Assembly (NCBI GenBank): GCA_017557525.1
Contig: JAFYYN010000105.1
Coordinates: 34,367 to 98,366, forward strand
DNA length: 64,000 nt
Direction: 5' to 3'
Source: Lachnospiraceae bacterium
GTDB taxonomy: Bacteria > Bacillota > Clostridia > Lachnospirales > Lachnospiraceae
Shown here: positions 5,719-64,000 of the stretch, one piece after another
How positions within the stretch are numbered: position 1 is the stretch's first letter
Layout: each line of letters begins with the position of its first letter
Notes under the pieces: generated by a model
What the model was told of the DNA's origin: nothing
Seen by the model: the letters and a program-made list of their open reading frames with translations, nothing else
The model's database searches: none
Program-made: the position numbers and the translations under genes

Positions 5719-6447
5719 TTACAGACGGAAGGCGAATATATCGCCTCTTATGTACTGCCTTGACGTATGGAGGGGGCGTCCCTTTTTGTCATATATTACT
5801 TCGTGGAGAAACATTACTGCGGAATCAGGTTCGATCTTTAACAACCGAGCTACATTCGGTGAGGCTTTTTTTAGAGAAATGACATGTGTAGCCTGTGCGG
5901 GCTCTGTACCGCATTCCTCAAGCAGATTATAAAGCGAACCGTTTAAGTCGCTTTCAAGCAGATAGGAGTATGCCATTGAAAAATGGTTTTCCTCCAGTAT
6001 GACCGGTACTCCGTCTGCATAATGAATCCTCAATGTCTCTACTACCCTGCTGCCACATGACACTCCCAGCTCTTCCTCATCTATTGAGCTGGCCGGTATA
6101 GTTTTCTGGTCGAGCACCTTGGTGGACGGCTTTTTGCCATTCATTCTACAGGTGTCGTGAAAGCTGTTTACCTCATGCAGCTTTCTCCTTATAGCCGGTA
6201 CCGTAACAAAGGTGCCTTTTCCCTGCTTTTTTTCGAGTATCCCCTGCTTTTCGAGCTCGGAGATTGCCTTTCGAACCGTAATGCGGCTCACCCCGTATGT
6301 GGTACACATTTCCTGCTCGGCAGGGATCCTCGTACCCACATGAAGCTCTCCGTTGCTGATACTGTTTTTTATTTTCTGCATCAGCTGAATATAGAGCGGC
6401 TTGGAGGTGTCACTATTAAGTTTTGTATCTATTGTTTTTTCCTGCAT
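5719..6447 (-). CDS. GntR-family (HutC/UTRA) transcriptional regulator, NagR-like
   Basis: A 242-residue regulator. An N-terminal winged helix-turn-helix spans about residues 15-78 (IPAEQEMCTTYGVSRITVRK, then the wing KKQGKGTFV) and a C-terminal UTRA ligand-binding domain about 95-238. Proteins of this architecture (YvoA/NagR, DasR) respond to GlcNAc-6-P or GlcN-6-P and control nag genes. Position immediately before nagB makes this the likely role. I could not find a convincing HutC-type operator by eye, so the regulatory target is inferred. Confidence 0.88.
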   Translation of the reverse strand: MQEKTIDTKLNSDTSKPLYIQLMQKIKNSISNGELHVGTRIPAEQEMCTTYGVSRITVRKAISELEKQGILEKKQGKGTFVTVPAIRRKLHEVNSFHDTCRMNGKKPSTKVLDQKTIPASSIDEEELGVSCGSRVVETLRIHYADGVPVILEENHFSMAYSYLLESDLNGSLYNLLEECGTEPAQATHVISLKKASPNVARLLKIEPDSAVMFLHEVIYDKKGRPLHTSRQYIRGDIFAFRL

Positions 6448-6469
6448 TCGTAGAATCCTTTACTTTTGA

Positions 6470-6519
6470 CACCTCATCAGTCAGCCTTTGGCTGACAGCT
6501 TCCCTTCAAGGTGAAGCCT
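6470..6519. repeat. Dispersed palindromic repeat, CTCATCAGTCAGC family (copy A)
   Basis: CACCTCATCAGTCAGCC followed by TTT and GGCTGACAGCTTCCC, then a second palindrome CTTCCC...GGTGAAG. GTCAGCC/GGCTGAC is a perfect 7-bp stem. Near-identical blocks occur at 43994-44044 and, more rearranged, at 41576-41724. This copy separates glmM from the GntR gene and would fold into two hairpins if transcribed. Confidence 0.75.
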
Positions 6520-6567
6520 ATGCTGCATGGTGTGTTTGCCCAAAGAAGAAGGCTTAAAGTCTATGGA

Positions 6568-7929
6568 TCAGCGGATCTTCTGAAGATGTCCTGAAACCTT
6601 CATTGATTCGATGATGCTGTCAACCTGCTTTTCGCACTCTTCGATGGTTCCTGCCTCTGACATAACACGAAGTACAGGCTCTGTACCTGATTTTCTTAAG
6701 AGCACACGTCCGTCATCGCCGAGATCTGCTGTAGCCTTCTCAACTGCTGCCTTAACTGCTTCGTCATTTAAGGTCTCGTCCTTGTCATCTACCTCTACAT
6801 TCTTAAGAACCTGAGGGAACATCTGGCAGCCTGAAGCAAGCGCCGAAAGAGGAAGCTTGGTGTCAATAAGAACTGACATGAGCATGATTGCTGTGATAAG
6901 TCCGTCACCGGTATGAGCATACTTACGGAAGATAACGTGTCCAGACTGCTCTCCTCCGATCATGTGATCGAATTCCTTCATGTTCTCATATACATATCTG
7001 TCGCCTACTGCGGTCTTTTCGTACTCGATGCCTTCCTTGTCGAGTGCCTTGTAAAGACCAAAGTTTGACATAATTGTTGTTACAACGGTGTTTGAAGGAA
7101 GCAGTCCGTTCTTCTTCATCCACTTTGAGCAGATGTACATGATCTTGTCGCCGTTAACCTCATCGCCATTCTCATCAACTGCAAGACATCTGTCAGCATC
7201 ACCGTCAAATGCAAATCCGACATCCATCTTGTTTTCCTTAACGTAAGCCTTTAAAGACTCGAGATGTGTTGAACCGCAGTTCATGTTGATATTAAGTCCG
7301 TCGGGTGCATCATTGATGACATAGGTCTTTGCCCCAAGTGCGTTAAATACTGCGGGTCCGATCATCCATGCGGCTCCGTTTGAACAGTCAAGAGCGATCT
7401 TGTAATTTTCAAATGAACGTGTAGCAAGTCCTGTAAGGTATCCGATGTAGCGGTTTCTTCCTGTATAAAAATCGATTGTACGTCCGATGGCATCTTCTAC
7501 TGCGCTTTCAAGCTCTGCAGGCTCGCCGTCTATAAATTTCTCAAGCTCGTTCTGAAGGTCATCATCCATTTTCTCACCTTCATTGTTCATAAGCTTGATG
7601 CCGTTGTCAAAGTAAGGATTGTGAGAAGCAGAGATCATAACGCCACAGTCAAAGCCTTCTGTCCTTGTGATATAGCTTACACAGGGAGTTGTGGTTACAT
7701 GCAGGAGATATGCGTCTGAACCTGTTGAAGTGATACCTGCTGCAAGTGCATTCTCATACATATAGGAGGATCTTCTGGTATCCTTTCCTATTACAATCTT
7801 TGCAGGCTCGCCGTTATGCTTTTTCTTGTAATACCAGCCTAAAAACTGACCGGTCTTGAATGCATGCTCTGCCTTAAGCACCTTTCCTGCTTTTCCTCTG
7901 AATCCGTCTGTTCCGAAATACTTTCCCAT
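6568..7929 (-). CDS. glmM: Phosphoglucosamine mutase
   Basis: Interconverts glucosamine-6-phosphate and glucosamine-1-phosphate for UDP-GlcNAc and peptidoglycan synthesis. The 453-residue protein has the N-terminal MGKYFGTDGFRGKAG, the catalytic phosphoserine loop MISASHNPYFDNGIK, the Mg-binding AFDGDADRCLAV and the sugar-binding GGEQSGHVIF. The frame opens 12 codons further upstream, but AAGGAGACTCAT immediately precedes the ATG at 7929, and the family normally begins MG(K/R)YFGTDG, so I use 7929. A consensus promoter and a perfect palindrome lie about 65-115 bases upstream. Confidence 0.95.
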   Translation of the reverse strand: MGKYFGTDGFRGKAGKVLKAEHAFKTGQFLGWYYKKKHNGEPAKIVIGKDTRRSSYMYENALAAGITSTGSDAYLLHVTTTPCVSYITRTEGFDCGVMISASHNPYFDNGIKLMNNEGEKMDDDLQNELEKFIDGEPAELESAVEDAIGRTIDFYTGRNRYIGYLTGLATRSFENYKIALDCSNGAAWMIGPAVFNALGAKTYVINDAPDGLNINMNCGSTHLESLKAYVKENKMDVGFAFDGDADRCLAVDENGDEVNGDKIMYICSKWMKKNGLLPSNTVVTTIMSNFGLYKALDKEGIEYEKTAVGDRYVYENMKEFDHMIGGEQSGHVIFRKYAHTGDGLITAIMLMSVLIDTKLPLSALASGCQMFPQVLKNVEVDDKDETLNDEAVKAAVEKATADLGDDGRVLLRKSGTEPVLRVMSEAGTIEECEKQVDSIIESMKVSGHLQKIR

Positions 7930-8210: not shown

Positions 8211-10151
8211 TCATTTCAATATTTTTCTGGTTGCTCTGTTTTTATCCTTCATGGCATACATCCTGTCGTCACTCTTAGTGAGCCACTCCGTAAGCGTTAT
8301 GCCCGCATTTGGCGTACAGATACAGTATCCGTAGCTTGCACACACATTATAAGGCTTTTTGGAATTTTTATTGAAATCCTCAAGATATGTTTCAAAACGC
8401 TTTACAAACTTTGCTACGGAATTTTCGGAGTAGTCAAGTGCCAATACCTGGAACTCATCTCCGCCAACTCTGAAGCCTATCTCATCGCTGAAGGAGGCCT
8501 CCCTTATGGCATCTGCCAAGACACAGAGAGCAAAATCACCCTCGGGATGTCCAAAGTTGTCGTTTATTACCTTAAGCCCATCCATATCGATGCCTATGAT
8601 AACCATAGTCCTGTGTTCGGTCTGGATGATATTATACATACGGTGGGTTTCAAGCTCAAATCCATGCCTGTTTTTAAGACCCGTAAGCACATCCGTAACA
8701 TACATGGAGGAAAGCTTATCAATAAGCGCCGCATTTCTCTTTAACGATCTCATATGCTCCAAGGCATTACATATGGAGATATGCATCGACTCATAAAATC
8801 CGTTTATTGTACCGCCCGGATAATAATCGATCACGGTATAGCCGAAGCTTGCGCCCTGGAAATGCAGGGGGATAACATAATAAGCCTTAGGTTCGTCACT
8901 TATAAACTCGTCCGGCAGCAGCTCACGTCTAGGGATGGTGATATCCACCTTCTTCTGCAGCTCCGTATTAAAGAATACCGTCCTAACGTGCATATTATCG
9001 GTATATCCGTGCATCTCATCATTTTCCATGGATTCCCACTTGTAATCGTTTACCACAACAAAGAAATCCTTATAATATTCATTAATAAATATATATTTGG
9101 ACAATGAATGATTGAGCTCCTCAAAATCCTGAGCGACGGCAGTGTCCAGACTCATAAAGCAGCTCTCAAGGAACTCATGCCTCTGTCCGCTCCATGCCGA
9201 AAAGTAATTTCTAACCGCATCAGTCAGGGATTTTGTGGAGAACTCCTGACAGCCGCAGCTCTGTCTTGGTACTATGGTACCCGGAATATATTCGTATTTT
9301 TCAATCTTTTTTCCGTCTCTTAAAGCATAGAACATCTTGATGGCGGTTTTCGCCATTTCCTTGATATCGATTCTGACCGAAGAAATTGAAGGGATAGTAT
9401 ATCTAACCTCATTTATATCATCGAAACCGGTAACCACAACATCCCTGGGGATCTCAAAGCCTCTTTCCTGAAGTGAATGGCATACTGCTATAGCCATATA
9501 GTCATTAGCACAGACTATTGCTTCTGGCAGCTTGCCGTTTCTTCTTTCAAGGATGGTATCAACTATGCTGTCACCCTGATTACGCCAGAAATCACCATGG
9601 ATCAGGTTTTCATCCTCTAAAACCATGCCATACTCGTTAAATACACGTCTTACGCAGGCAAGTCTTTTAACCGCATCCGGATGTCCTTCAATACCGCTGA
9701 CATAAAACAGATCCTTAAAATGATGATGCTCAATAAGATGCTTTATCATGCATTCCATCGAATTTTCATCATCTATCAGAACAGTGTTATAATCGTCCGC
9801 TTCACGTCTGATGCTTATAACAGGACAGTGGCTGTTCTTTTTTACCATATTTAAAACTTCTTCGGCTGCATCATGATTTGTGAATGTATCAAGGCACAGG
9901 AAAATACCATCGTAATCAGCATACTCCGGCAGATAAGCCGCATTAAACTCACCTGCTTCGAATTCCTCGGTATTGCCGTATCCGCCGAACCAGTTAAATA
10001 TGATAGAATAATATCCGCTTTTTGACATTTCATCTGTCAGATGGTTGATCATCTGAATCTGATAATCAACCATGCTGCCACAGATTATTATAGCCACTTT
10101 TTTTCTTTTAGAAAATCCCATAGTTTGCATCAAATACAGGCATGTTTGCAT
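8211..10151 (-). CDS. LacI-like periplasmic-binding-fold sensor fused to GGDEF domain
   Basis: A 646-residue soluble protein. Residues ~17-300 form a LacI-type sugar-binding (Peripla_BP_3) domain (KKVAIIICGSMVDYQ..., AIVCANDYMAIAVCHSLQERG, VVVTGFDDINEVRYT) but with no helix-turn-helix before it. A linker or GAF-like region covers ~310-480, and a GGDEF domain ~485-646 carries an intact GGDEF at ~563-567. No signal peptide or membrane segment, so the sensor acts in the cytoplasm. It probably couples a small ligand, perhaps a sugar, to c-di-GMP output. Start choice is uncertain: no good ribosome site precedes 10151, and downstream in-frame ATGs exist. It follows the flagellar block directly and ends at a strong terminator. 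Confidence 0.88.
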   Translation of the reverse strand: MQTCLYLMQTMGFSKRKKVAIIICGSMVDYQIQMINHLTDEMSKSGYYSIIFNWFGGYGNTEEFEAGEFNAAYLPEYADYDGIFLCLDTFTNHDAAEEVLNMVKKNSHCPVISIRREADDYNTVLIDDENSMECMIKHLIEHHHFKDLFYVSGIEGHPDAVKRLACVRRVFNEYGMVLEDENLIHGDFWRNQGDSIVDTILERRNGKLPEAIVCANDYMAIAVCHSLQERGFEIPRDVVVTGFDDINEVRYTIPSISSVRIDIKEMAKTAIKMFYALRDGKKIEKYEYIPGTIVPRQSCGCQEFSTKSLTDAVRNYFSAWSGQRHEFLESCFMSLDTAVAQDFEELNHSLSKYIFINEYYKDFFVVVNDYKWESMENDEMHGYTDNMHVRTVFFNTELQKKVDITIPRRELLPDEFISDEPKAYYVIPLHFQGASFGYTVIDYYPGGTINGFYESMHISICNALEHMRSLKRNAALIDKLSSMYVTDVLTGLKNRHGFELETHRMYNIIQTEHRTMVIIGIDMDGLKVINDNFGHPEGDFALCVLADAIREASFSDEIGFRVGGDEFQVLALDYSENSVAKFVKRFETYLEDFNKNSKKPYNVCASYGYCICTPNAGITLTEWLTKSDDRMYAMKDKNRATRKILK

Positions 10152-53762: not shown

Positions 53763-56309
53763 TCATACAATATCGGCTTGTTTTCTTAAATCAAACGCAT
53801 GAATAACAGAAAAAGCTACGGTCAATATGATTACTACACCCAGTGTTACAAACATAGCTATGCCCATTTCTTTTAATGTAATATTATAAAAAGAATATAC
53901 ATTTCTCATAAAAGACAACGAAGCAATAATATGCATAACTATTCCTACTATCAATGCATCCACTATGCATTGCGAATTTTCTAACAAACTTAGTTTTAAT
54001 AATGTTTTTTTATCTATTCCTATGTTCCGGTAAGTTTTTATCGAAGGTAACCAAATAATACGATCCAATTTATTTACCACATAAAGCAAAATCACAGCTA
54101 CTATTATGACAACTGTTACACAGATCAGTACTGAAACGACTCTAATATCAAATGTTTCCTGAGCCTCCTTGTTATATTCATGTATATCACTTATATACAT
54201 ACCATTAAGAAAGGCAAAATCATTTAATTTTCTATAAAGAATTTCATAAGTTCCTTTTTTTTCTATAATTTTATAAAGCGTTTCATGGTGAAAGTCTTCA
54301 CTATTGAAGTATTTATAATATAGCTCAATAGGAGCTATTATTACAATTGTCAATCCAGTATCAAAACTACTCTTCTCTGTAGCTATATTAACCCATGAAT
54401 AACCAACTTCAAGCTCAAAGCTGTTCTCCAGATTTGTAAAAGAACTTCCACACATCACACCGGTATTTTTAATAATAGTCTTTCCTACATCAAAGTATTT
54501 TTTAGAATCAAAAGAATGGTAATACCCTTGGACTATGCTTTTCTTTTCTGAAGAAAACGTCTCATAATCTGGTAAATAGCTTCCTCCATTTTCTTGCATA
54601 TACCGGTAATAATTTTCTTCCGGGAACACAATAGGAACCGACCATATCAAGTTCCCAGAGCCATCTATGTAAGAATCATACCAACCTTTGGCCTTAATGT
54701 CATCAAACACTTCTTTTCCAAGCATTTCTTCAGAAAGTATCATTCTGGTTGCACTGACACCTGCTTTCTTTTGTATGCTTTCGATTTCAGGAATGGACTC
54801 CAATTCATATTCTGACTCTATATAAATGTCACCATCTTTTGATAGCATAAAATCATAACCGGGTTTAATAATATCCCTCTCAGCAATTTGATATGATGAT
54901 ATCCCTATAATACAGCAGCAAGGAATAACAGTCAGAGCAAGAATCACTACAAATGTTTTTATCACTCTCCGTCCTGAAAACCTATGGTTGTTACACTCCG
55001 CAAGGTTGTATAGTGAACTAAGTGTTTTTTGATTATATCTGTATGTATTCCTCTTTCCCATTGATTCATGCTTAGGCAATTTGTGTTTTATCACTAAAAA
55101 CAATACTATAAGTGAACTTAACGTCATGATAAAGAAAGATATTAAAAACAATGTCACATTTATATTTTGTAATCCAGTATCAAAATAAGTCGAGTCTGAA
55201 ACGTAAGTTACCATCTTCCCCCAGAAATGGGAAAAGACTATCAGGATACAAAAAGCGATACCATATCCCAATACCAATACTATAAAATTGATCGTTAAAT
55301 ATATTTGATAGATCTGTTCTCTTTTGGCACCCACGCAAAACATGAGTTTCATTTGTTTTTGTTCTTCATGAAGGTTTTGATACTGACATATAACTATAAC
55401 GCAAACACCTGAAACAATCAAAACAAATTCTAATACAAATATCCCATTTTTTAAAGTACGCAGATAGTCCGTTAATTCAATACTCTTTAGTGCATTCTCA
55501 ACATACTGGTTTATTTTAACTTCTTTATATTCCCCACTATCTTCAAGTATACCATATATATTCACTAAATCCTCATAGTTTTCATCACACAAACAATAAT
55601 ATGATTTCTGACAATAATACTCACTTTCTTTCTGTTCTTTGTCATAGATACAATAACCATATGAAACATGCTGCGTACTCATTTTCTTCTCATAGTCAAA
55701 GATCCCACATATAGTGTATTCTTTCGCACCTGACAGTATAAAAGATTCCTTCCCGGCGATTTCATCCTGAGAACATTTTCCATTCTCGTCTTTTCTTATG
55801 CCATAAGGTATTGTAATCTTGTCTCCGATTTTGATACTTTCTTTAGCAACAGACCTACCGTCATCTAAAATAAAATCCTTCGGAACCACTATCTCATTAT
55901 CTGATTCAGGCCACCTTCCTTTCCATAAACCAGAAACCAAAACAACATCATTCTCATCATGTATCCCCACAAGACTCATATAATAGTATTCGAACGTATC
56001 TTTCATCGAATCAGGAACATAATCTTCCGGTATTTTCCCTTGTCTTACAGAATACGTTACATCACACGAAGCAACCTTAAGCAGCCTCTCATTAGTGAGT
56101 TCTTCGGGATCAGAAGTAACATTGTCAACCATAACTGAAATATCCCATTTTCCGACATTCAGATAAGCGTTTTCTATTATTGACGATATATGTCCTGAAT
56201 AAACCAATTCCATTACTGATATAAATAATGCGCATGTTATGATACCCGAAAGGACAATAATATATTTTCTTTTTTTCCTTCTCATCAGCATGAATATCAG
56301 TTTAAGCAT
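53763..56309 (-). CDS. FtsX-type ABC transporter permease (MacB/Bce-like)
   Basis: An 848-residue permease. It has one N-terminal membrane segment (~15-38), a large extracytoplasmic domain (~40-280), three segments (~285-405), another helix (~450-475), a second extracytoplasmic domain (~480-715) and three C-terminal segments (~720-845). This double-FtsX plan fits exporters or antimicrobial-peptide-sensing transporters. A LolD-like ATPase gene lies six bases upstream. Substrate unknown. Its AT-richer composition than the flagellar block is noticeable by eye. The neighbouring sigma/anti-sigma genes suggest an envelope-stress role. Confidence 0.85.
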   Translation of the reverse strand: MLKLIFMLMRRKKRKYIIVLSGIITCALFISVMELVYSGHISSIIENAYLNVGKWDISVMVDNVTSDPEELTNERLLKVASCDVTYSVRQGKIPEDYVPDSMKDTFEYYYMSLVGIHDENDVVLVSGLWKGRWPESDNEIVVPKDFILDDGRSVAKESIKIGDKITIPYGIRKDENGKCSQDEIAGKESFILSGAKEYTICGIFDYEKKMSTQHVSYGYCIYDKEQKESEYYCQKSYYCLCDENYEDLVNIYGILEDSGEYKEVKINQYVENALKSIELTDYLRTLKNGIFVLEFVLIVSGVCVIVICQYQNLHEEQKQMKLMFCVGAKREQIYQIYLTINFIVLVLGYGIAFCILIVFSHFWGKMVTYVSDSTYFDTGLQNINVTLFLISFFIMTLSSLIVLFLVIKHKLPKHESMGKRNTYRYNQKTLSSLYNLAECNNHRFSGRRVIKTFVVILALTVIPCCCIIGISSYQIAERDIIKPGYDFMLSKDGDIYIESEYELESIPEIESIQKKAGVSATRMILSEEMLGKEVFDDIKAKGWYDSYIDGSGNLIWSVPIVFPEENYYRYMQENGGSYLPDYETFSSEKKSIVQGYYHSFDSKKYFDVGKTIIKNTGVMCGSSFTNLENSFELEVGYSWVNIATEKSSFDTGLTIVIIAPIELYYKYFNSEDFHHETLYKIIEKKGTYEILYRKLNDFAFLNGMYISDIHEYNKEAQETFDIRVVSVLICVTVVIIVAVILLYVVNKLDRIIWLPSIKTYRNIGIDKKTLLKLSLLENSQCIVDALIVGIVMHIIASLSFMRNVYSFYNITLKEMGIAMFVTLGVVIILTVAFSVIHAFDLRKQADIV

Positions 56310-56315
56310 ACCATT

Positions 56316-56984
56316 TCACCTCACTCCATCAATCCCGCCATCGCTCATTCTTAATATCTGATCTGCGTATGAAGCCATATCAATGTCATGTGTAACCATA
56401 ATCACAGTACTCCCATATATATTTACACAATTTCTTAGAAGTTCCATAACCTTTCCTGCATTTTCGTGATCAAGATTTCCTGTTGGTTCATCTGCAAGTA
56501 TAACTTTAGGAGTTATCAATAGTGCCCTTGCTATAGCAACTCGTTGTTTTTCTCCACCGGACAGCTCGGCAGGAAATTTCTTCAAAACATCTTCAATTCC
56601 CAAATCAGATACAATCCGTTCCAAATATGACTGATCAAATTGTTTTTTATCAAAAACAAGCGGAAGAATGATATTATTTTTTACATTTAGTTCATCTATA
56701 AGGTTATATTGCTGAAATATTACGCTAAGCTGTCTTCGTTTTAGTTCTGCTTTCTTATTCTCATCACAGCTATTGATTAAAACACCATCAAAATAATACT
56801 CCCCTGAATCAGGAGAAATGAGCGTAGCCAGAACATTTATCAGTGTAGTTTTTCCACATCCGCTCTTACCCATTATTGCTAAAAAACTTTTTTCACCCAC
56901 ATATAAATCAATCCCCCGAAGCGCATCAACCTTTGATTTGCCCACTCCAAATGATTTAAATATTTTTTTTGCTTCGATTAGCAT
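56316..56984 (-). CDS. ABC transporter ATP-binding protein (LolD/MacB type)
   Basis: A 222-residue ATPase subunit: Walker A GKSGCGKTTLINVL (~38-51), Q-loop VIFQQYNLIDEL, signature LSGGEKQRVAIARALL and Walker B VILADEPTGNLD, with the H-loop VTHDIDMA. It partners the FtsX-type permease encoded six bases downstream. The stretch upstream (56990-57060) is AT-rich with two ATTATAAT blocks, but no well-spaced -35; a separate promoter is likely because a hairpin terminator precedes it. Confidence 0.92.
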   Translation of the reverse strand: MLIEAKKIFKSFGVGKSKVDALRGIDLYVGEKSFLAIMGKSGCGKTTLINVLATLISPDSGEYYFDGVLINSCDENKKAELKRRQLSVIFQQYNLIDELNVKNNIILPLVFDKKQFDQSYLERIVSDLGIEDVLKKFPAELSGGEKQRVAIARALLITPKVILADEPTGNLDHENAGKVMELLRNCVNIYGSTVIMVTHDIDMASYADQILRMSDGGIDGVR

Positions 56985-57058
56985 AGGATTATTTCCTTTC
57001 GCACTACCGCATTATAATATAGATCCTTTTTTCAAAAGCGATTATAATATTGACTATT

Positions 57059-57089
57059 CAAAGACCGGAGTTGCATTTGGCAACTCCGG
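57059..57089 (-). terminator. Hairpin terminator at the end of the sigma-factor operon
   Basis: CCGGAGTTGC (57065-57074) and GCAACTCCGG (57080-57089) form a perfect 10-bp stem, followed on the minus strand by TCTTTG. The T-run is poor, so efficiency is uncertain. The core matches the nagB terminator at 4782-4806. Confidence 0.6.
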
Positions 57090-57106
57090 CAATAAATCTC
57101 TACAGA

Positions 57107-57499
57107 TTATTGATAATCCCAATTGTTGATTTCGACTGTATAGTCGTTAAACGCATCATTTCCCTTTTGGATTACTATTCCCACAGGCTGACCCACATAT
57201 CCATCCCCATACGAATTGTACCATCCTAAATATGTAGTATCATATTCATAGCATACTGTCACTGGGTTTGCTTGAGTCCAGCTTGTCTCTCCCATTTTCT
57301 TCGCAATTGTATCAACCTTTATATAATTATACAGTGAAACATCTCCCAATGTATCGGGAATACTCCCCTGTCATTTTGCTGGCTATCAGGCATTATACCG
57401 TTCAACTATGCAGCTCTTTTTGCAGAAGCATACCCCAAAGGATATTACACCGGCATATCCAGTATACCTCTTCAACCTTATCACGCAGATTATAATCAT
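57107..57499 (-). pseudogene. Decayed gene, only the C-terminal ~80 codons still open
   Basis: Codons for GDVSLYNYIKVDTIAKKMGE through NDYTVEINNWDYQ are open at 57107-57349 but with no good start (a TTG would be needed). Upstream the coding character moves between frames: MPDSQQNDRG reads into a GGGG run where one extra base would restore SIPDTLGDVSLYN, and further up DYNLRDKVEEVYW ends at a stop. This looks like a frameshifted remnant of a protein gene. The family is unknown. It lies between the secreted-protein gene and the terminator, in the sigma operon. Confidence 0.5.
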
Positions 57500-57934
57500 T
57501 TAATAACTGGCAGTATTACCATTCACATCAAATGATTCGCTTCCATTACCATCCGAGGCAGTTACCGACATCCAGACTTTGTAAGTTCCGTGAGATACTG
57601 TAGTAGAATCTGTATTGTCCTGATCTTTCCCGCCGCTATGACTCCATGAAGTAACTCTATGCCATGTCCCGTTTATTAACTGATCAAGATAAACGGTTAT
57701 ACTTGTTGATGTAGTACCGGACTTACCATAAACCTCTGATTTAACTGTTGCTGTTCCAGCAGATATAGAAAGTACACATTTAGAACTATTTACATATGCA
57801 TATGGATCCTCTCCTTCATCATCTACCGGATACTCTAATTCATCAGCCTTTGTATTAACATTTGGCTTCATCTCAAAAGAAAACAGAGAAAACGCCAATA
57901 ATGCAACAACAGGTAATAATATTACTTTCTTCAT
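57500..57934 (-). CDS. Small secreted protein of the sigma-factor operon (144 aa)
   Basis: Not recognised with certainty. A signal peptide (KKVILLPVVALLAFSLFSF, probable cleavage after TKA near residue 30) is followed by an acidic segment (DELEYPVDDEGEDPYAYV) and a beta-rich, Ser/Thr-rich domain. It has one cysteine in the mature part. The frame opens at 57952, but GGAAGG seven bases before the ATG at 57934 decides the start. It lies 36 bases after the anti-sigma gene, so it is probably induced with the sigma factor. Extracellular role unknown. Confidence 0.75.
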   Translation of the reverse strand: MKKVILLPVVALLAFSLFSFEMKPNVNTKADELEYPVDDEGEDPYAYVNSSKCVLSISAGTATVKSEVYGKSGTTSTSITVYLDQLINGTWHRVTSWSHSGGKDQDNTDSTTVSHGTYKVWMSVTASDGNGSESFDVNGNTASY

Positions 57935-57970
57935 TGTTTTTCCTTCCTTCATCCAAATTATTGTTTAGTC

Positions 57971-58693
57971 CTATTTTTCGATTGATTCAATCATTTTAAT
58001 CATTTCCTGCCTGCCAACATTTCCTGGCTGTGCAATCAAGCTATAAACATATGTACCATCTGTAACAATTAAGTAGTTACTATCATCTGTCTCTATATAC
58101 TCCCCTGAGTACTCTCTAAAAGAAACCTGTTCCGACCTTCCATTTTCTGTACTGTAATAAGTCTTAACTGTAGATGTATCTTGCGAATAATATATTTCTC
58201 CATCAAATTCTTTAGACTGATAGATAGTATTATAACTCATGACATGCATGTGCTCAGTTTCCTTATAGTACCCCTCCGGAATCCATACCGGCTCATAATA
58301 GTCTAAAATCTCCAGAGCCGGATTTTTCTCCTGTTTCTCAACAGTAACAGATACATCATTATAATCAATTTCAAGCTCACCGTGATTACCCTTATCCTTA
58401 ACCTGTATACCCCGGATATGGTTGAGCACAGCAGCATATACAATACCCCCAGTCAGAGCAGTTGACAGACAAACAATAAAAACTATACAGGCGACCTTGC
58501 TGATGCACAGACGGCCTATCCTTATCCTCTTCTTTTCGCTCTGTCGCGCCACCTCCTTGCATTTATCTAAGAAACCGCTCTCCTCAATTTTCTTCAGCCT
58601 CTCATCGATCTGCTTTTCTTCCTCTTCGGTAAGACGCGGTTCCCCAAAATAAAGATCTATAGCCTCTTTAAGGCTGTATTTTTCTTCATCCAT
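57971..58693 (-). CDS. DUF4367-type membrane protein, putative anti-sigma factor
   Basis: A 240-residue single-pass protein. The cytoplasmic N-terminal ~60 residues carry charged helices (TEEEEKQIDERLKKIEESG) and a Cys, followed by a membrane segment (~65-88, VACIVFIVCLSTALTGGIVYA) and an extracytoplasmic DUF4367-like domain (PVWIPEGYYKETEH...VSFREYSGEY...YVYSLIAQPG). This layout, directly after an ECF-like sigma gene, suits an anti-sigma. The frame is open from 58738, overlapping the sigma gene by 17 bases with its own AGGAGG; I prefer 58693 (GGAGG six bases upstream, MDEEKYSLKEA). Either is possible. Confidence 0.8.
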   Translation of the reverse strand: MDEEKYSLKEAIDLYFGEPRLTEEEEKQIDERLKKIEESGFLDKCKEVARQSEKKRIRIGRLCISKVACIVFIVCLSTALTGGIVYAAVLNHIRGIQVKDKGNHGELEIDYNDVSVTVEKQEKNPALEILDYYEPVWIPEGYYKETEHMHVMSYNTIYQSKEFDGEIYYSQDTSTVKTYYSTENGRSEQVSFREYSGEYIETDDSNYLIVTDGTYVYSLIAQPGNVGRQEMIKMIESIEK

Positions 58694-58721
58694 CTCTACC
58701 CTCCCCGAACGTCTGTTCTTA

Positions 58722-59330
58722 TTATCGCATTTTTTCATTGTTCAGCCTCCTTCTGATTTCTTTTTTAAGTTTTTTCCTGGCTCTATGGAGCCATTGTTTT
58801 ACGGTATCTTCTTTAGCTCCGTGTATTTCCGCGATCTCAGGTATTTTATAGCCTTCAATATAAAATTCCTTTATTATCTGCTTATATCTGTCCTTCAATG
58901 CATCCACTGCCAGCAGGATCTCATTTCTTTCTATCCAGCCTAACACTTTCGTTTCAAAGTATTCATCTACAAGTTTATCAGCCGATACTCCTATAAAAGT
59001 ATTTACGCTTTTAAGTTCTTCATCGGTGAGTATAGGCAGTTCATGTCTCATAATAAGCTGCTGTTTTCGGAATATGTCTAAAGCGGCTGTTTTAGCGGCA
59101 TTAACCAATTTCCCTTTTAACATTTCAGGGTTTTCCCTGAAATAATCGATATTTTGGGTGACCTTAAGAAAGGTTGACTGAAAGGCATCATCCGCATAAT
59201 CCTGATTTTTCAGAATATCCGTGCATATCCTCATAACCAACCTGCTATGTTCTCTGAATATTGTCTCCGGGCTGATATCTTCACTATCCGTTACCGCCAG
59301 TTTAACAGATAACTGTAATCCATCTTCCAT
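58722..59330 (-). CDS. ECF-like sigma-70 family RNA polymerase sigma factor
   Basis: A 202-residue sigma factor with region 2 (~20-90: FREHSRLVMRICTDILKNQDYADDAFQSTFLKV, quoted in part) and region 4 (~135-190: LKDRYKQIIKEFYIEGYKIPEIAEIHGAKEDTVKQWLHRARKKL, quoted in part), and no region 3. It overlaps or abuts the DUF4367 gene, implying control by that membrane protein. Its own promoter (59367-59396) shares both boxes and spacing with the one at 63841-63870, pointing to autoregulation. Confidence 0.9.
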   Translation of the reverse strand: MEDGLQLSVKLAVTDSEDISPETIFREHSRLVMRICTDILKNQDYADDAFQSTFLKVTQNIDYFRENPEMLKGKLVNAAKTAALDIFRKQQLIMRHELPILTDEELKSVNTFIGVSADKLVDEYFETKVLGWIERNEILLAVDALKDRYKQIIKEFYIEGYKIPEIAEIHGAKEDTVKQWLHRARKKLKKEIRRRLNNEKMR

Positions 59331-59366
59331 AGCTTATCACCCTATCTTTTTCTACTCTCTATTATA

Positions 59367-59396
59367 TATAACGAAGCAAGTATGCAAAAGGTGACA
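59367..59396 (-). promoter_or_regulatory. ECF-type promoter of the sigma operon
   Basis: Minus-strand TGTCACC (59390-59396) and CGTTATA (59367-59373), 16 bases apart. The same boxes, same spacing and similar flanks (TTTT after the first box, AT-rich run before it) recur at 63841-63870. TSS would be near 59360, 30 bases before the ATG. Confidence 0.78.
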
Positions 59397-59441
59397 CTTT
59401 TTCAAAAAAATTTAAAAAAAATTGTATTTGTGATAATTATG

Positions 59442-60107
59442 TCATTTTTTCGCTCTAAAAGTAAGTTTATTAAACCTTTTCTGAGCTAAATAGAAAAACA
59501 CTATTGAAAATACAAGGGTACTCACCAGCTTGATCCAAATATCCTTTAATTCTAAGCTTTTACCTATTTCTACCGTTATTACAAGGTATCTGCTGATCTC
59601 TGTTAAGCCACCCCAGATATTTATATATAATACCATCATCACTATAGCAAATGTCCAAAGCATATTTCTGATCATCATTAAAACTAAAAACCCTATTCCA
59701 CCATAATACCATGACTGTGTTAACAGAACAAGATAGAATTTCATTACATCTGCCATCGGATATTTGTTTACGAACAGCAGCGCAGTACAGGTTATTAATG
59801 TAAGAACACTAAAAGCTCCCATCACAGTTGCTGCTCTTCCCGTCCCGAGCACTTTTCTTGAAAAACCGTATGAAAAAAATGCTTCTGCACCCTCGTCCTC
59901 TACAAATGAATAGAAAAGCATTATTACCCACCAGGATGCAAGCGGAGGAATAAGCTGTTGATACATATTAAGAACCAAAAACGGCTGCCATGGGTCGAAC
60001 ATTACAGAGCCATATAATGTCAGCAATGCTATAAACACAACAGGAACAAATGACGTTACTGACATTCCTTTAAAATCAAGAATAATTAGTCTGATGAATC
60101 TTTTCAT
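59442..60107 (-). CDS. ABC-2-type transporter permease
   Basis: A 221-residue protein with about six hydrophobic segments (for example SFVPVVFIALLTLYGSVMF, LASWWVIMLFYSFV, GFLVLMMIRNMLWTFAIVMMVLYI, quoted in part) typical of ABC-2 permeases. The frame opens 11 codons earlier, but AGAGGAG six bases before the ATG at 60107 decides the start. It follows the ATPase gene after about 45 bases and probably forms a transporter with it and the 696-residue permease. Confidence 0.85.
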   Translation of the reverse strand: MKRFIRLIILDFKGMSVTSFVPVVFIALLTLYGSVMFDPWQPFLVLNMYQQLIPPLASWWVIMLFYSFVEDEGAEAFFSYGFSRKVLGTGRAATVMGAFSVLTLITCTALLFVNKYPMADVMKFYLVLLTQSWYYGGIGFLVLMMIRNMLWTFAIVMMVLYINIWGGLTEISRYLVITVEIGKSLELKDIWIKLVSTLVFSIVFFYLAQKRFNKLTFRAKK

Positions 60108-60152
60108 TTTTCTCCTCTTAAAACAATCTACAATAAACACACCTCCGTAACC

Positions 60153-61001
60153 CTATTCCATATGAAGAAGATAAATATACGATTCCTCAAGGGTAGGTTC
60201 TACCTGTACGGCAGCCTCACATGGTTTTTTACAGCACACCATTCTTGTTCTGAATATTCCATCGATATTTCTGCAGTCTGTTATGATACCGTCATATTCT
60301 TCCCCTGTTCTTTCTTCAGTTAAATAGATTTCCCATAAGTTTCCTCTTGCTTTATCTATCATCTCGTCAGCTGTGCCGGTCAGCACCACTTTCCCTTTAT
60401 GCATTACTGTTACCCTGTCGCACACATCCGTTATATCATCTATAATATGAGTTGAAAACAAAACTGTCATTCTATCCCCTAGCTTTTTGAGCAGCAGCTT
60501 GAAACGCATCCTCTCCTCCGGATCCAGTCCTGATGTTGGCTCATCTACTATAAGAATTTCAGGATTACCCAATATAGCCTGAGCTATCCCAAGCCTTCTA
60601 ACCATACCTCCGGATAGAGTCCCCACTTTTGCATCCGCCTTATCACTCAGATTAACCAGATTTATCACTTTTCTGCACTCATCCTCTGGATTTCCCTTTA
60701 TCTTTTTTAGTATAGCAACATGTTCCAAAGCATCCTTTACTGTCAGTTGATGATACATTCCAAATTTTTGTGGAAGATATCCGATGATATTTCTGACTTT
60801 TCCAACCTCTTCCCATGTAAGTCCGTTATATACTATGCTTCCGCTATCCTTTTCAAGTATTGTGGCGACTATCCTCATTAATGTAGTCTTTCCGGCTCCG
60901 TTTTCTCCGACCAGTCCGTGTACGCCCTTAATACCATTGATAGTTACATTATCCAAAGCTTTTAATTTTCCATACTTCTTGTTTAACCCGATTATATCCA
61001 T
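60153..61001 (-). CDS. ABC transporter ATP-binding protein (ABC-2 exporter type)
   Basis: A 282-residue ATPase: Walker A GENGAGKTTLMRIV (~33-46), Q-loop GYLPQKFGMYHQL, signature LSGGMVRRLGIAQAIL, Walker B ILIVDEPTSGLDPEE and H-loop STHIIDD. The C-terminal ~75 residues are a variable extension. It is encoded between two permease genes, the pattern of antibiotic- or peptide-resistance exporters such as BcrA, though substrate is unknown. Confidence 0.92.
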   Translation of the reverse strand: MDIIGLNKKYGKLKALDNVTINGIKGVHGLVGENGAGKTTLMRIVATILEKDSGSIVYNGLTWEEVGKVRNIIGYLPQKFGMYHQLTVKDALEHVAILKKIKGNPEDECRKVINLVNLSDKADAKVGTLSGGMVRRLGIAQAILGNPEILIVDEPTSGLDPEERMRFKLLLKKLGDRMTVLFSTHIIDDITDVCDRVTVMHKGKVVLTGTADEMIDKARGNLWEIYLTEERTGEEYDGIITDCRNIDGIFRTRMVCCKKPCEAAVQVEPTLEESYIYLLHME

Positions 61002-61021
61002 GATACCCCACCGTTTTCGCG

Positions 61022-63112
61022 TTATTCTGTTTCGCCGTCGATAATTTCATTGATAACTCTTGTGATTTTCCCAACATTTGAACCATTGTTTATCAGTTCA
61101 AGAAATTCTCCGAAAAAACTTATCTGTTTTTCATCATCCGCGGTTAAAATATGATCTTTTATCTTCTGTGCCATATCAGCCAGGTCCAGTCTTTTTTCAT
61201 CATCACGTATAGTTTGTATCAGGCTGTCAAATGATGGGATAAATATTTTCTCTCCATTAATAACATTTCTGATACTCAGGCTTTCTAAATATGAATATTC
61301 AAATATCCATATAACTTCCCTGTCCACTCTGTTCCAAGCACTTGTACGGGTTACTGAATCAACAACATTCCTGCCATCCATAGATTCTATCAAAGATCCT
61401 CCCTGATCAAAAAATATGCACATGATTATATGATCTTTAAAAAAGTACAGCCCTGAACTTGTATATGAATTTAAAAGACTCGGAAAAACAAATATTTTAT
61501 CTGCATTAAAGCTTTGCGCTCCATCTTTAAGTTCTCCTGAGGCGGCATTTGTAACAGCAATAAGCCCTTTCATCGCACTAGCCGCCTGTTCCGCATTTTC
61601 CGGATAAATTCTCGGATAAACCACTGATATACCGCCCACTATTTCCTCATCAAACCAGCCGCATGCCAAAGTAATACCTGAACTTATTCCTTCCCAATTA
61701 TCCGTTTTTCTATCCAGACTGCAGAAAACTTCATTATTCCCAAGGTATTTAACCGTTATTGGTACATCCTTCTTTCTGTCAGGATAGTTAAACATTGCCA
61801 AAGTATCCCATTCATTTGCCATAGCTTTTCCAACATACTCAACAGGAATCCATGCAAACATACCGGGCAGTATCCACTTATCGGAAGCCATATATAGGTT
61901 TATCGGCGGTATCCCTTCATATTCCAAACTCAAAATATGATTTCCGGTTTTATACCTGATATTTTCTACGATTAACGCGTCTCCCTCTACCCTGAACATT
62001 TCTTTTCTACCATCTATTGTACATTTAGAAATCTCAAATCCATGGAAGAGCGTAAAAACCAGTGGATGTTTATCATCTGTTATATTTAGCATAACTTCAG
62101 TACATATTTTTAGTTTTAGTCCATCATCAATGCTTACGTCATATCCTGTAATATCATACACTGACGATATAGCTGTTAGCTCTTCACCAAAATCCGGTTC
62201 CGGACTTTTACTATAATAATCAATCAACTCTGTCTGTCTCATATAACGATTTTGCAACTTTACTACGCGGTTTGCTCCCCGGATTCCTGCTATTATGAGC
62301 GTTATCGCAATGATTACGAGCACGACTTTATATATTGTTTTTCTTCTCCCTTTAATTGTATTTACCGCAAGTATAATCAGTAATACTCCCATTATTTCAC
62401 ATATTCTTGCTATCCAAAGTTCTTTATTCAGGCAGTAACCCAACGACTCCGATATTGCAGCATGCAGGTTTAAATCTCCCAAATTGAAAAGCATATATAT
62501 CTGATACTGAGAGCCTGATTCCGTCAGCAGAAATGGACTCACAAGCTTTGGAACTAATGGTCCTAGCAAAACTGATATAAATATAACAAGAGGATAGACC
62601 ATTTTAAATCTGACCGACTGCCCCAATATACATCCTATCAACCCGGATATAAAAAATGGAATAACCCAGTATAACAGTATATATGCACCGCTAGGGATAT
62701 AATATGGCTCCGCTGCTTTAAGTATACTAAATACCACAAATACAGCTAATGATCCTGTAGCAAAAATAAACATCCCGACAGTCATTAGAAGAAATATCTT
62801 TGCAATGATTTTATAAAAATGCGTATAAGGGATAACAGAAAATGCTTCGTCACATTCTTCTTTTCTCTCTTTAGATGATAATATAGTCCCGAGTATTATA
62901 CCCCCGGTCAACAAAGACTGCGTAACGATACCCTGAGATATAAAAGCATCACCTAAAACAAATTTTGAATAGAGGAATAGTCTTGAACAGAAATAAACCA
63001 GTATAGCAAACCATAGTATAATAAAAGCCCATATATTTATACTATTTACAAAGAGCATAAACTCCATTTTTATTACTTCTATAAAAGTTTTTCCTACATG
63101 ATTTCTACTCAT
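61022..63112 (-). CDS. ABC-2 permease fused to an M1-peptidase-like domain without HExxH
   Basis: A 696-residue protein. The N-terminal ~275 residues hold about seven membrane segments. From ~300 on lies an extracytoplasmic beta-rich domain (KLKICTEVMLNITDDKHPLVFTLFHGFEISKC..., YKTGNHILSLEYEGIPP, quoted in part) that resembles the N-terminal saddle domain of M1 aminopeptidases, as in the permease/M1 fusions known from other bacteria. I see no HExxH zinc motif or GAMEN motif, so it is probably non-catalytic. It lies 20 bases upstream of the ATPase gene and 52 after the secreted-protein gene. Confidence 0.75.
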   Translation of the reverse strand: MSRNHVGKTFIEVIKMEFMLFVNSINIWAFIILWFAILVYFCSRLFLYSKFVLGDAFISQGIVTQSLLTGGIILGTILSSKERKEECDEAFSVIPYTHFYKIIAKIFLLMTVGMFIFATGSLAVFVVFSILKAAEPYYIPSGAYILLYWVIPFFISGLIGCILGQSVRFKMVYPLVIFISVLLGPLVPKLVSPFLLTESGSQYQIYMLFNLGDLNLHAAISESLGYCLNKELWIARICEIMGVLLIILAVNTIKGRRKTIYKVVLVIIAITLIIAGIRGANRVVKLQNRYMRQTELIDYYSKSPEPDFGEELTAISSVYDITGYDVSIDDGLKLKICTEVMLNITDDKHPLVFTLFHGFEISKCTIDGRKEMFRVEGDALIVENIRYKTGNHILSLEYEGIPPINLYMASDKWILPGMFAWIPVEYVGKAMANEWDTLAMFNYPDRKKDVPITVKYLGNNEVFCSLDRKTDNWEGISSGITLACGWFDEEIVGGISVVYPRIYPENAEQAASAMKGLIAVTNAASGELKDGAQSFNADKIFVFPSLLNSYTSSGLYFFKDHIIMCIFFDQGGSLIESMDGRNVVDSVTRTSAWNRVDREVIWIFEYSYLESLSIRNVINGEKIFIPSFDSLIQTIRDDEKRLDLADMAQKIKDHILTADDEKQISFFGEFLELINNGSNVGKITRVINEIIDGETE

Positions 63113-63164
63113 TTTCCACTACCCCTTAATACGCGTTATCTGATCTTTTTATCAGTATATACTG

Positions 63165-63569
63165 TTAATTAGTAAGCCTTCCAGCCCCATAACAGTCTGA
63201 CGAAGCTCCACCTGCTGGCTCAAGATGCACATACAGTTCCGCTCCAGACGAAACCGGATAATTACTCAAAATTGAATACCATGTTCCACCTATCCAACCT
63301 GTTCCCGGTTGAAGAGTGGTAGAGCTAAGGATTGTGTAACTTGAAGAGGATGTTTTCTGTCTCAACTGAACAACAAGGTTTCTTGTTGAGTAAATTGAAT
63401 TGCATCCATCCAAATCGACAGTTCCATAACATACCATAGTATTGCTATCTTTAGATGGATCGGTTGTATAAATTGTAACCGAAACCGTCTGCGCCATTAC
63501 ACTTACCGAAGTACAAAAAGCAAGAATAAGGCATAACGTAAGAGCAAATCTTTTTAGAAATTTACGCAT
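63165..63569 (-). CDS. Small secreted protein, first gene of the second sigma-controlled operon
   Basis: A 134-residue protein, not recognised. A signal peptide (LKRFALTLCLILAFCTSVSVMA, cleavage probably after VMA near residue 26) is followed by a ~108-residue Ser/Thr/Gly-rich beta domain with three cysteines. No similarity to the other secreted protein (57500-57934) is evident beyond composition. It is the first gene after the ECF-type promoter at 63841-63870, with an unusually long ~265-base leader, and it precedes the ABC-2 exporter genes. It could be an exported effector or a sensor of envelope damage. Confidence 0.75.
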   Translation of the reverse strand: MRKFLKRFALTLCLILAFCTSVSVMAQTVSVTIYTTDPSKDSNTMVCYGTVDLDGCNSIYSTRNLVVQLRQKTSSSSYTILSSTTLQPGTGWIGGTWYSILSNYPVSSGAELYVHLEPAGGASSDCYGAGRLTN

Positions 63570-63654
63570 ATTTTTCCCTTTCCGTGACTTATAAAAAATA
63601 TCACTATAAACTTTGACTATCTATCATTTCTGATAAAGCAGCAAAAAACTCTTA

Positions 63655-63685
63655 TTATGTCAAATCTTTCAATGGTATCACCTCC
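63655..63685 (-). CDS. Possible five-codon leader peptide
   Basis: A perfect ribosome site GGAGGTGAT (63677-63685) in the long leader precedes TTG AAA GAT TTG ACA TAA (63672 to 63655), a five-codon frame (MKDLT). No start codon of a longer gene follows at good distance. The strength of the site without a gene makes it unusual; it may be a leader ORF or fortuitous. Confidence 0.3.
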
Positions 63686-63692
63686 ACTAATC

Positions 63693-63743
63693 CATCAGCC
63701 AATGTAAGTAACCTGCAGTATTACAAACCACATTTGGCTGATG
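63693..63743. other. Long stem-loop in the leader of the secreted-protein operon
   Basis: CATCAGCCAATGT (63693-63705) pairs with ACATTTGGCTGATG (63730-63743) with one bulge, and TGTAA/TTACA can extend the stem inward. It precedes the strong ribosome site at 63677-63685 on the minus strand. The gap 63570-64000 otherwise holds a promoter and a possible terminator, and no gene. Confidence 0.6.
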
Positions 63744-63840
63744 CATTTTATTATTTCAACAGTCTGTTGATATATCCATTCTTTTTCTTTACTAAAGACT
63801 CTCTTCTATCCATTGATCTATATTTTATGCTTCTATTATT

Positions 63841-63870
63841 TATAACGAAACAGATACGTAAAAGGTGACA
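63841..63870 (-). promoter_or_regulatory. ECF-type promoter of the secreted-protein/ABC-2 operon
   Basis: Minus-strand TGTCACC (63864-63870) and CGTTATA (63841-63847) with a 16-base spacer, identical in both boxes and spacing to the sigma-gene promoter at 59367-59396. Flanking TTTT and AT-rich upstream sequence also match. Confidence 0.78.
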
Positions 63871-63941
63871 CATTTTTGGAATTTTTTTAGAATTTTTTAG
63901 ATAAAAGTATAACTATTCATATTTCAGCCCAAATTTAAAAG

Positions 63942-63972
63942 AAGCGAACAACCTTATCAGTCATCCGCTTCT
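63942..63972 (-). terminator. Possible terminator of a gene beyond the right edge
   Basis: AGAAGCG and CGCTTCT (about 63941-63973) form a 7-bp stem with a long, weakly paired loop, followed on the minus strand by TTTTAAATTT. It would end a minus-strand transcript entering from the right. Confidence 0.4.
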
Positions 63973-64000
63973 CATCTGTCTTTATTATTCTTTTATCGGG

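Follow-up and report, generated by a model that had tools for sequence, protein, structure and literature searches.

Two copies of the motif TGTCACC-N16-CGTTATA, named here S1 and S2, lie on the minus strand of the window (the whole stretch of 64,000 nucleotides analysed) and are best read, with a probability of about 0.85, as the promoters of an autoregulated local regulon in which the ECF sigma factor encoded at 58722-59330 would control its own operon and a neighbouring exporter operon. The same prediction had been made in a preliminary description of this DNA, and it is supported by the synteny of the locus in a congener and by a -35 class that tracks the sigma clade, and direct control by the local sigma instead of a paralogue is probable.

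Promoter sites and genes of the window

The features of the region, all on the minus strand, are the following; the congeners G010 and G001 are used for comparison.

63939..63973, minus strand: terminator-like hairpin upstream of S2
63841..63870, minus strand: promoter S2, with the same boxes and spacing as S1, 271 nt 5' of the secreted-protein/ABC operon
63165..63569, minus strand: small protein that heads the S2 operon, its start resembling a signal peptide (by eye), with 38% identity to the G010 protein at L220:6959-7363
61022..63112, minus strand: 696 aa membrane protein, ABC-2-like by context with no family above cut-off, 35% identical to a 704 aa G010 protein
60153..61001, minus strand: ABC ATPase, 49% identical to its G010 counterpart
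59442..60140, minus strand: presumed ABC permease of 232 aa, a membrane protein whose gene comes last before S1; a 227 aa G010 ORF stands in the same place, a positional likeness
59367..59396, minus strand: promoter S1, TGTCACC-N16-CGTTATA, 36 nt to the sigma ATG (59330), then TATAATAGAG
58722..59330, minus strand: ECF sigma factor, 202 aa, Sigma70_r2 at 24-91 and Sigma70_r4_2 at 136-188, TIGR02937 above cut-off
57971..58738, minus strand: probable membrane anti-sigma, 255 aa, with an N-terminal part, one hydrophobic stretch (by eye) and DUF4367 at 148-253
57500..57952, minus strand: small protein encoded third in the sigma operon, its start resembling a signal peptide (by eye), conserved in five aligned sigma islands
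57107..57349, minus strand: 80 aa ORF that aligns over 83 columns, at 36% identity, with the second half of a secreted G001 protein of 132 aa
56316..56984, minus strand: LolD-type ABC ATPase, 64% identical to a G001 protein that follows a further promoter copy
53763..56309, minus strand: FtsX-type permease of 848 aa, sharing 36% identity with its G001 counterpart

S1 and S2 are the only matches in the window to TGTCACC-N14..18-CGTTATA, and none is expected by chance (100 dinucleotide shuffles, largest count 0). Thus, the motif does occur exactly twice, as described preliminarily, and its second copy does stand ahead of the secreted-protein/ABC operon, whereas the gap between S1 and the sigma start, given there as 30 bases, was measured as 36 nt.

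The sigma factor, whose gene is separated by S1 from that of the 232 aa membrane protein, has regions 2 and 4 only, with no region 3 family listed, which is a trait of ECF (group IV) sigmas, and it ends 14 residues past region 4. S1, which precedes this gene, has an ECF-type -10, its CGT following the -35 at about 16 nt. The gene of the DUF4367 protein overlaps that of the sigma by 17 nt. In Bacillus, SigW, SigV and SigP each have a membrane-bound anti-sigma encoded with the sigma, and the window resembles these systems in the putative membrane-bound partner encoded beside its sigma, SigW being also the best match of the latter in a search of solved structures (E 1.4e-7); however, the partner matches DUF4367 and not DUF4179, unlike the SigW/SigV/SigP comparison set. 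A DUF4367 profile gave no credible match to solved structures, the one hit, over 24 residues, being to a designed repeat protein (E 0.0052).

The S2 operon comprises four genes in the same orientation, separated by 12-52 nt. Terminator-like sites were only mildly in excess in the region (5 vs. 2.9 in shuffles), and a scan of the region found none between the last exporter gene and S1; as all seven genes are co-oriented, S2 transcripts may therefore run into the sigma operon. The leader of the S2 operon, 267 nt long, contains a long hairpin (CATCAGCCAA...TTGGCTGATG) at 63690-63745 and as a whole folds slightly better than shuffled sequences (z -1.81, 6/200 as good), and no Rfam family matched at gathering score in 56900-64000.

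When the search was extended to the whole genome (3,927,168 bases in 196 contigs, 92.54% complete), three exact sites were found in its 3.93 Mb, S1, S2 and a third, S3 (contig C20:220-249), located 5' of an ORF of 250 aa whose start resembles a signal peptide; the reversed-pattern control gave 0. A fourth site, S4 (contig C16:208-237), has one box mismatch, and 12 further sites have exactly two. As the 16 sites with up to two mismatches compare with 20 control matches, there is only noise past one mismatch, and the regulon recognisable from sequence is one of three to four predicted promoters. The candidate set is consequently wider than the two promoters first proposed, by one exact and one near site. 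The motif is not equally frequent in the coding DNA of this genome, S1 and S2 being outside the listed ORFs (at least 80 aa) and S3 outside ORFs of at least 40 aa.

Beyond this genome, 9 of 99 genomes, the own one included, carried the 14-base pattern with N14-18, at 11 places in all, and only the three places of the own genome had a TTTT run. Across the genome collection the 14-base pattern was present in at least 115 stretches, from many phyla according to their titles, and these were taken as chance. A form of the motif with a gap of 11-13 matched 42 of 395 genomes. The 24 genus genomes had 12 of its matches, and the reversed control had 6. Of these 12, six look real, namely S1, S2, S3, P1 of G010 (see below) and two in G013. 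All of the remaining six but that of G016 were inspected: four were rejected, having neither the A-tract nor the downstream AATAG, and the G002 match is ambiguous. Outside the genus, G432 had 13 matches, the ten listed being identical.

The G013 sites count against the regulon reading, because the promoter is present twice in a genome, 83% complete, with no sigma match at E<=1e-8. One of these two related sites (L221, 7633 onward) coincides in part with a 491 aa ORF (6192-7667), at the 3' end of the latter.

That the sites are ordinary sigma-A promoters, or chance matches in AT-rich DNA, has a negligible probability. Sigma-A-like pairs do overlap both sites (59388-59361, 10/12; 63862-63835, 9/12), with TTTGCA-N16-TATAAT overlapping S1, but such pairs occur in the region at the shuffle level (26 vs. 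26.3), and conservation across species concerns TGTCACC, the T-run and the CGT at N16.

The congener locus, the sigma islands and their promoter classes

Sigma matches at E<=1e-8 were found in 22 of the 24 genus genomes, a close one only in G010 (55% identity, the next being 34%). The G010 locus (L220) is arranged as follows.

L220, minus strand, in order: AAA-ATPase/PD-(D/E)XK gene, hairpin, P1, 178 aa ORF, P2, sigma, DUF4367 protein, 144 aa, 134 aa, 704 aa, ATPase, 227 aa
P1: TGTCACC-N16-CGTATAT, 5' of the 178 aa ORF
P2, promoter-like: TGTACAG-N16-CGTATAT, directly before the sigma gene

All genes are on one strand; the 144 aa and 134 aa proteins are of secreted type and those of 704 aa and 227 aa are membrane proteins. 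Identities to the window are 55% for the sigma, 53% for the DUF4367 protein, 55% for the 144 aa, 38% for the 134 aa and 35% for the 704 aa proteins, and 49% for the ATPase. The hairpin preceding P1 resembles by eye that upstream of S2. Thus, the exporter genes are inside the sigma operon in G010, whereas in the window they are split off upstream with their own promoter copy, S2. As both operons of the window have a common start signal and the congener keeps the genes together, the sigma probably switches on itself and the exporter. The family of the 704/696 aa proteins is rare, with matches at E<=1e-10 in 2 of 299 genomes of a family sample that excluded G010, one being the own genome and the other match partial.

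The spacer core of P2 agrees at 10/12 positions with that of S1 and also with that of P1, and its -35 agrees with that of S1 at only 3/7. This pattern would be compatible with an old pair of promoters. As the -35 of P2 is degenerate, TGTCACC directly ahead of a sigma gene was seen once, and, unless P1 reads through, this degeneracy counts against autoregulation in the strict sense in G010.

A separate element, TGCACACCA, was observed 82-89 nt after the -35 start at L220:9908, L221:7715 and L224:2541 and 6449, that is, behind four promoters of three congeners (G010, G013 and G001), and a variant of it follows the second G013 site. It was also present without such a promoter in L226 and L227 and inside a coding stretch of L175, and it is absent from the window.

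For 33 loci of sigma homologues, promoter classes were assigned in the 300 nt upstream of the match, with patterns written after the sequences had been inspected. The counts were 16 GGAACC (paired with CGTC), 10 TTGTCC-type (covering TGTCC[C/A], TGTCTA or CGTCCC), one TGTCACC (the window), one TGTACAG (G010) and five without a site; L190, L191 and L197, which the loose TTGTCC pattern also matched by chance, were counted as GGAACC. Among the five, L139 has ATGTCCC...CGTTATA about 3 kb upstream (L179). A tree was built with 31 of the 33 sigmas, L185 and L199 having been left out for lack of a usable frame from the match start, and carried a warning of long branches. The G010 sigma (L180) was entered in this tree as TGTCACC on account of P1, its sigma-proximal -35 being TGTACAG. 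It formed one group with the window sigma (95/87), beside an eleven-row group (99/99) made of nine TTGTCC-type sigmas and two without a site, and the GGAACC sigmas stood apart (88/88). The region 4.2 helix differs likewise by class, being VKQ.LHRARKKLK in the window and G010 sigmas, which share VKQ.LHRARKKLKK, ..KR.YR[SAG] in the TTGTCC class and GT[VI]KSRL.RA in the GGAACC class. On these sequence comparisons, the predicted -35 class follows the sigma clade in the genus.

These data bear on whether S1 and S2 could be ECF promoters that a paralogous ECF sigma mainly reads or at least shares, with the local sigma as only one of several inputs. The genome has eight sigma matches, three of them near relatives (L136, L138 and L139), and the L136 promoter has the same CGTTATATATA -10 (CGTTATA), so that cross-recognition is possible. 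However, the promoters at L136, L138 and L139 have TTGTCC or ATGTCCC and not TGTCACC, and the region 4.2 helix of the paralogues differs from that of the window sigma, which makes such an arrangement unlikely.

The regulon of the local sigma has apparent parallels elsewhere in the genus. Five aligned islands (the window, L220, L224, L178 and L177) all have a sigma, a DUF4367 protein and a conserved secreted-type protein of 137-150 aa; the partners in the window, L177 and L178 match DUF4367, and the promoter types differ between islands. Ten sigma-bearing loci, L179 and L223 not included, were scanned with their own boxes allowing up to 4 mismatches. Two promoter copies were found in the window, two in L177, three in L178, four in L224 and two in L225 (3 mismatches), the copies in L177, L178 and L224 having zero box mismatches; L226, L227 and L228 had one site each and L222 one for each of its two sigmas, whereas in L220 the P1 boxes did not find P2, nor the reverse. 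The reversed-box controls at the same threshold gave 0 except in L224 (4), L228 (1) and L221 (1). As L177 has a spacing of N18 and L178 a -10 of GATTAT, the classes differ in more than the -35.

The layout of L177, from the own genome, is similar to that of the window, with promoters at 155 and 6528 flanking genes for one protein of secreted type and one of lipoprotein type, an ABC ATPase and a membrane protein of 677 aa, followed by sigma, DUF4367 and secreted-protein genes. Many ECF sigma genes of the own genome precede a membrane-type partner, as observed in L176 (G000:C20; 2247-2825 and 8325-8888), L177, L178 and L179. In L178 (1911-2269, G000:C102), a broken sigma copy lies behind an intact copy of the island promoter, and the intact sigma gene follows about 6.5 kb further on.

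Selection or copying of the promoter block

The preliminary description took the identical boxes and spacing of S1 and S2, with similar flanks and a different spacer centre, as evidence of selection rather than recent duplication. The two sites do agree at 7/7 positions of the -35, 4/4 of the T-run and 7/7 of the -10, and only at 7/12 of the spacer core. The flanks are similar close in (6 of 10 nt upstream, 7 of 8 nt after the -10) but not further out (17/39 upstream, 13/40 downstream). This pattern, with 18/18 in boxes plus T-run, fits selection on the boxes, as does the comparison across species, in which S1, P1 and the two G013 sites agree at 11/11 positions of -35 plus T-run, with spacer cores of 5-8 of 12.

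The claim does not extend to S2, S3 and S4, which have in common about 105 nt upstream of the -35 at 84-93% identity (93% for this part of S3 vs. S2; 88% and 84% to S2 over the whole shared stretch). This block ends near the expected transcript start, and S3 and S4 abut partial gene copies: behind S3 come, by eye, the final codons of an ORF present in full in L178, and then a 250 aa gene 87% identical to its L178 neighbour, and S4 abuts a 5'-shortened gene copy of 241 residues, 71% identical to a 714 aa gene in L176. The block ends look like recombination junctions, as judged from these alignments. An assembly artefact behind them is possible; each of the S2, S3 and S4 contigs breaks off at most some 220 nt upstream of its promoter, and the first 141 bases are identical in the S3 and S4 contigs, as in contigs leaving a shared repeat.

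A duplication reading would go further and hold that copies of a terminator-promoter block spread through the genome, the shared boxes being leftover homology. The S2/S3/S4 block speaks for it and counts against the regulon reading, but S1 shares only the promoter core of about 54 nt (82%), and both the poor S1/S2 flanks and the conservation across species are contrary to it, so that it is very improbable as an account of S1 and S2.

The proposed circuit and known systems

If S1 and S2 are promoters of the local sigma, the circuit would work as follows. At rest, the DUF4367 protein, as putative anti-sigma, would hold the sigma at the membrane, from which an envelope signal, as expected for this class of sigma, would free it. 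The sigma with RNA polymerase would then read S1, giving more sigma, its anti-sigma and a small secreted protein, that is, positive feedback with its own brake, and free sigma would read S2, giving the second small secreted protein and the three-gene ABC exporter. The -35 TGTCACC may help to separate this circuit from the paralogous ones with TTGTCC-type -35 boxes. The cargo of the exporter could be the co-transcribed secreted proteins or a toxic compound.

The circuit logic is ordinary; several such circuits appear to stand side by side in the genus, each with its own signal. We suggest, tentatively and at somewhat less than even odds, that the genus multiplied sigma - DUF4367 - secreted islands, each insulated by a private promoter, and that promoter-block recombination, as at S3 and S4, gives the same promoter to new genes. 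If true, this would be a natural series of an ECF sub-family split into -35 classes (TTGTCC, TGTCACC) along with the region 4.2 helix. The locus itself offers a concrete candidate regulon, in which a sub-family of sigmas is connected with small secreted proteins and with exporters. Were the islands mutually insulated, the genus would be a ready set of related, separate ECF circuits for the study of promoter-specificity splitting after duplication.

ECF sigmas usually read the promoter of their own and their anti-sigma genes, and promoters of different groups are largely orthogonal (PMC3817407). Both autoregulation and group-wise orthogonality are thus already established there; what is unusual here, compared with autoregulated pairs in general, is the local expansion, with several islands of one sub-family and different -35 sequences in one genome.

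Typical ECF -35 boxes contain AAC, as stated in the ECF41 study (PMC3426412), and its absence from TGTCACC counts against the regulon reading. AAC is not strictly required, since ECF41 uses TGTCACA in the motif TGTCACA-n16 (+/-1)-CGTC, placed ahead of the sigma gene and of a neighbour, the sole targets detected (PMC3426412). This is the nearest published motif found, with a -35 one base from that of the window (6/7), a spacer of 16 and the motif before the sigma and a neighbouring target. Nevertheless, the -10 differs (CGTC vs. CGTT, 3/4), ECF41 has a large C-terminal extension that the window sigma lacks, the window sigma has a DUF4367 partner, and the described neighbours of ECF41 are carboxymuconolactone decarboxylase, oxidoreductase or epimerase, whereas those examined in the window are secreted-type proteins and ABC transporters. 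By the missing extension, the other -10 and the other neighbours, an assignment of the window sigma to ECF41 was ruled out. In the open-access literature, nothing was found on DUF4367 with ECF sigmas or on TGTCACC-N16-CGTTATA in such bacteria.

Searches with the gene products gave no Pfam family for the secreted proteins, no credible match to solved structures for the secreted-protein profile (best E 7.1) or the 696 aa protein (1.6), and no PADLOC match for 8 proteins. A lactococcin-972-like exporter was considered and dropped, since the ATPase at 56316-56984 scores 194.7 bits on TIGR03608, below the cut-off of 254.85, and the secreted proteins have no Pfam family.

In G001 (L224), the counterparts of this ATPase and of the permease at 53763-56309 follow their own promoter copy at 8341. 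The island scan found no promoter copy ahead of these LolD/FtsX-type genes in the window, where the first ORF is shortened; as its alignment covers the second half of the G001 protein, this 80 aa ORF is probably a 5'-shortened remnant. Between the sigma operon and this LolD-type exporter, a stretch at 57360-57480 looks by eye like a remnant of the 3' end of the PD-(D/E)XK/AAA-ATPase gene found ahead of the G010 operon.
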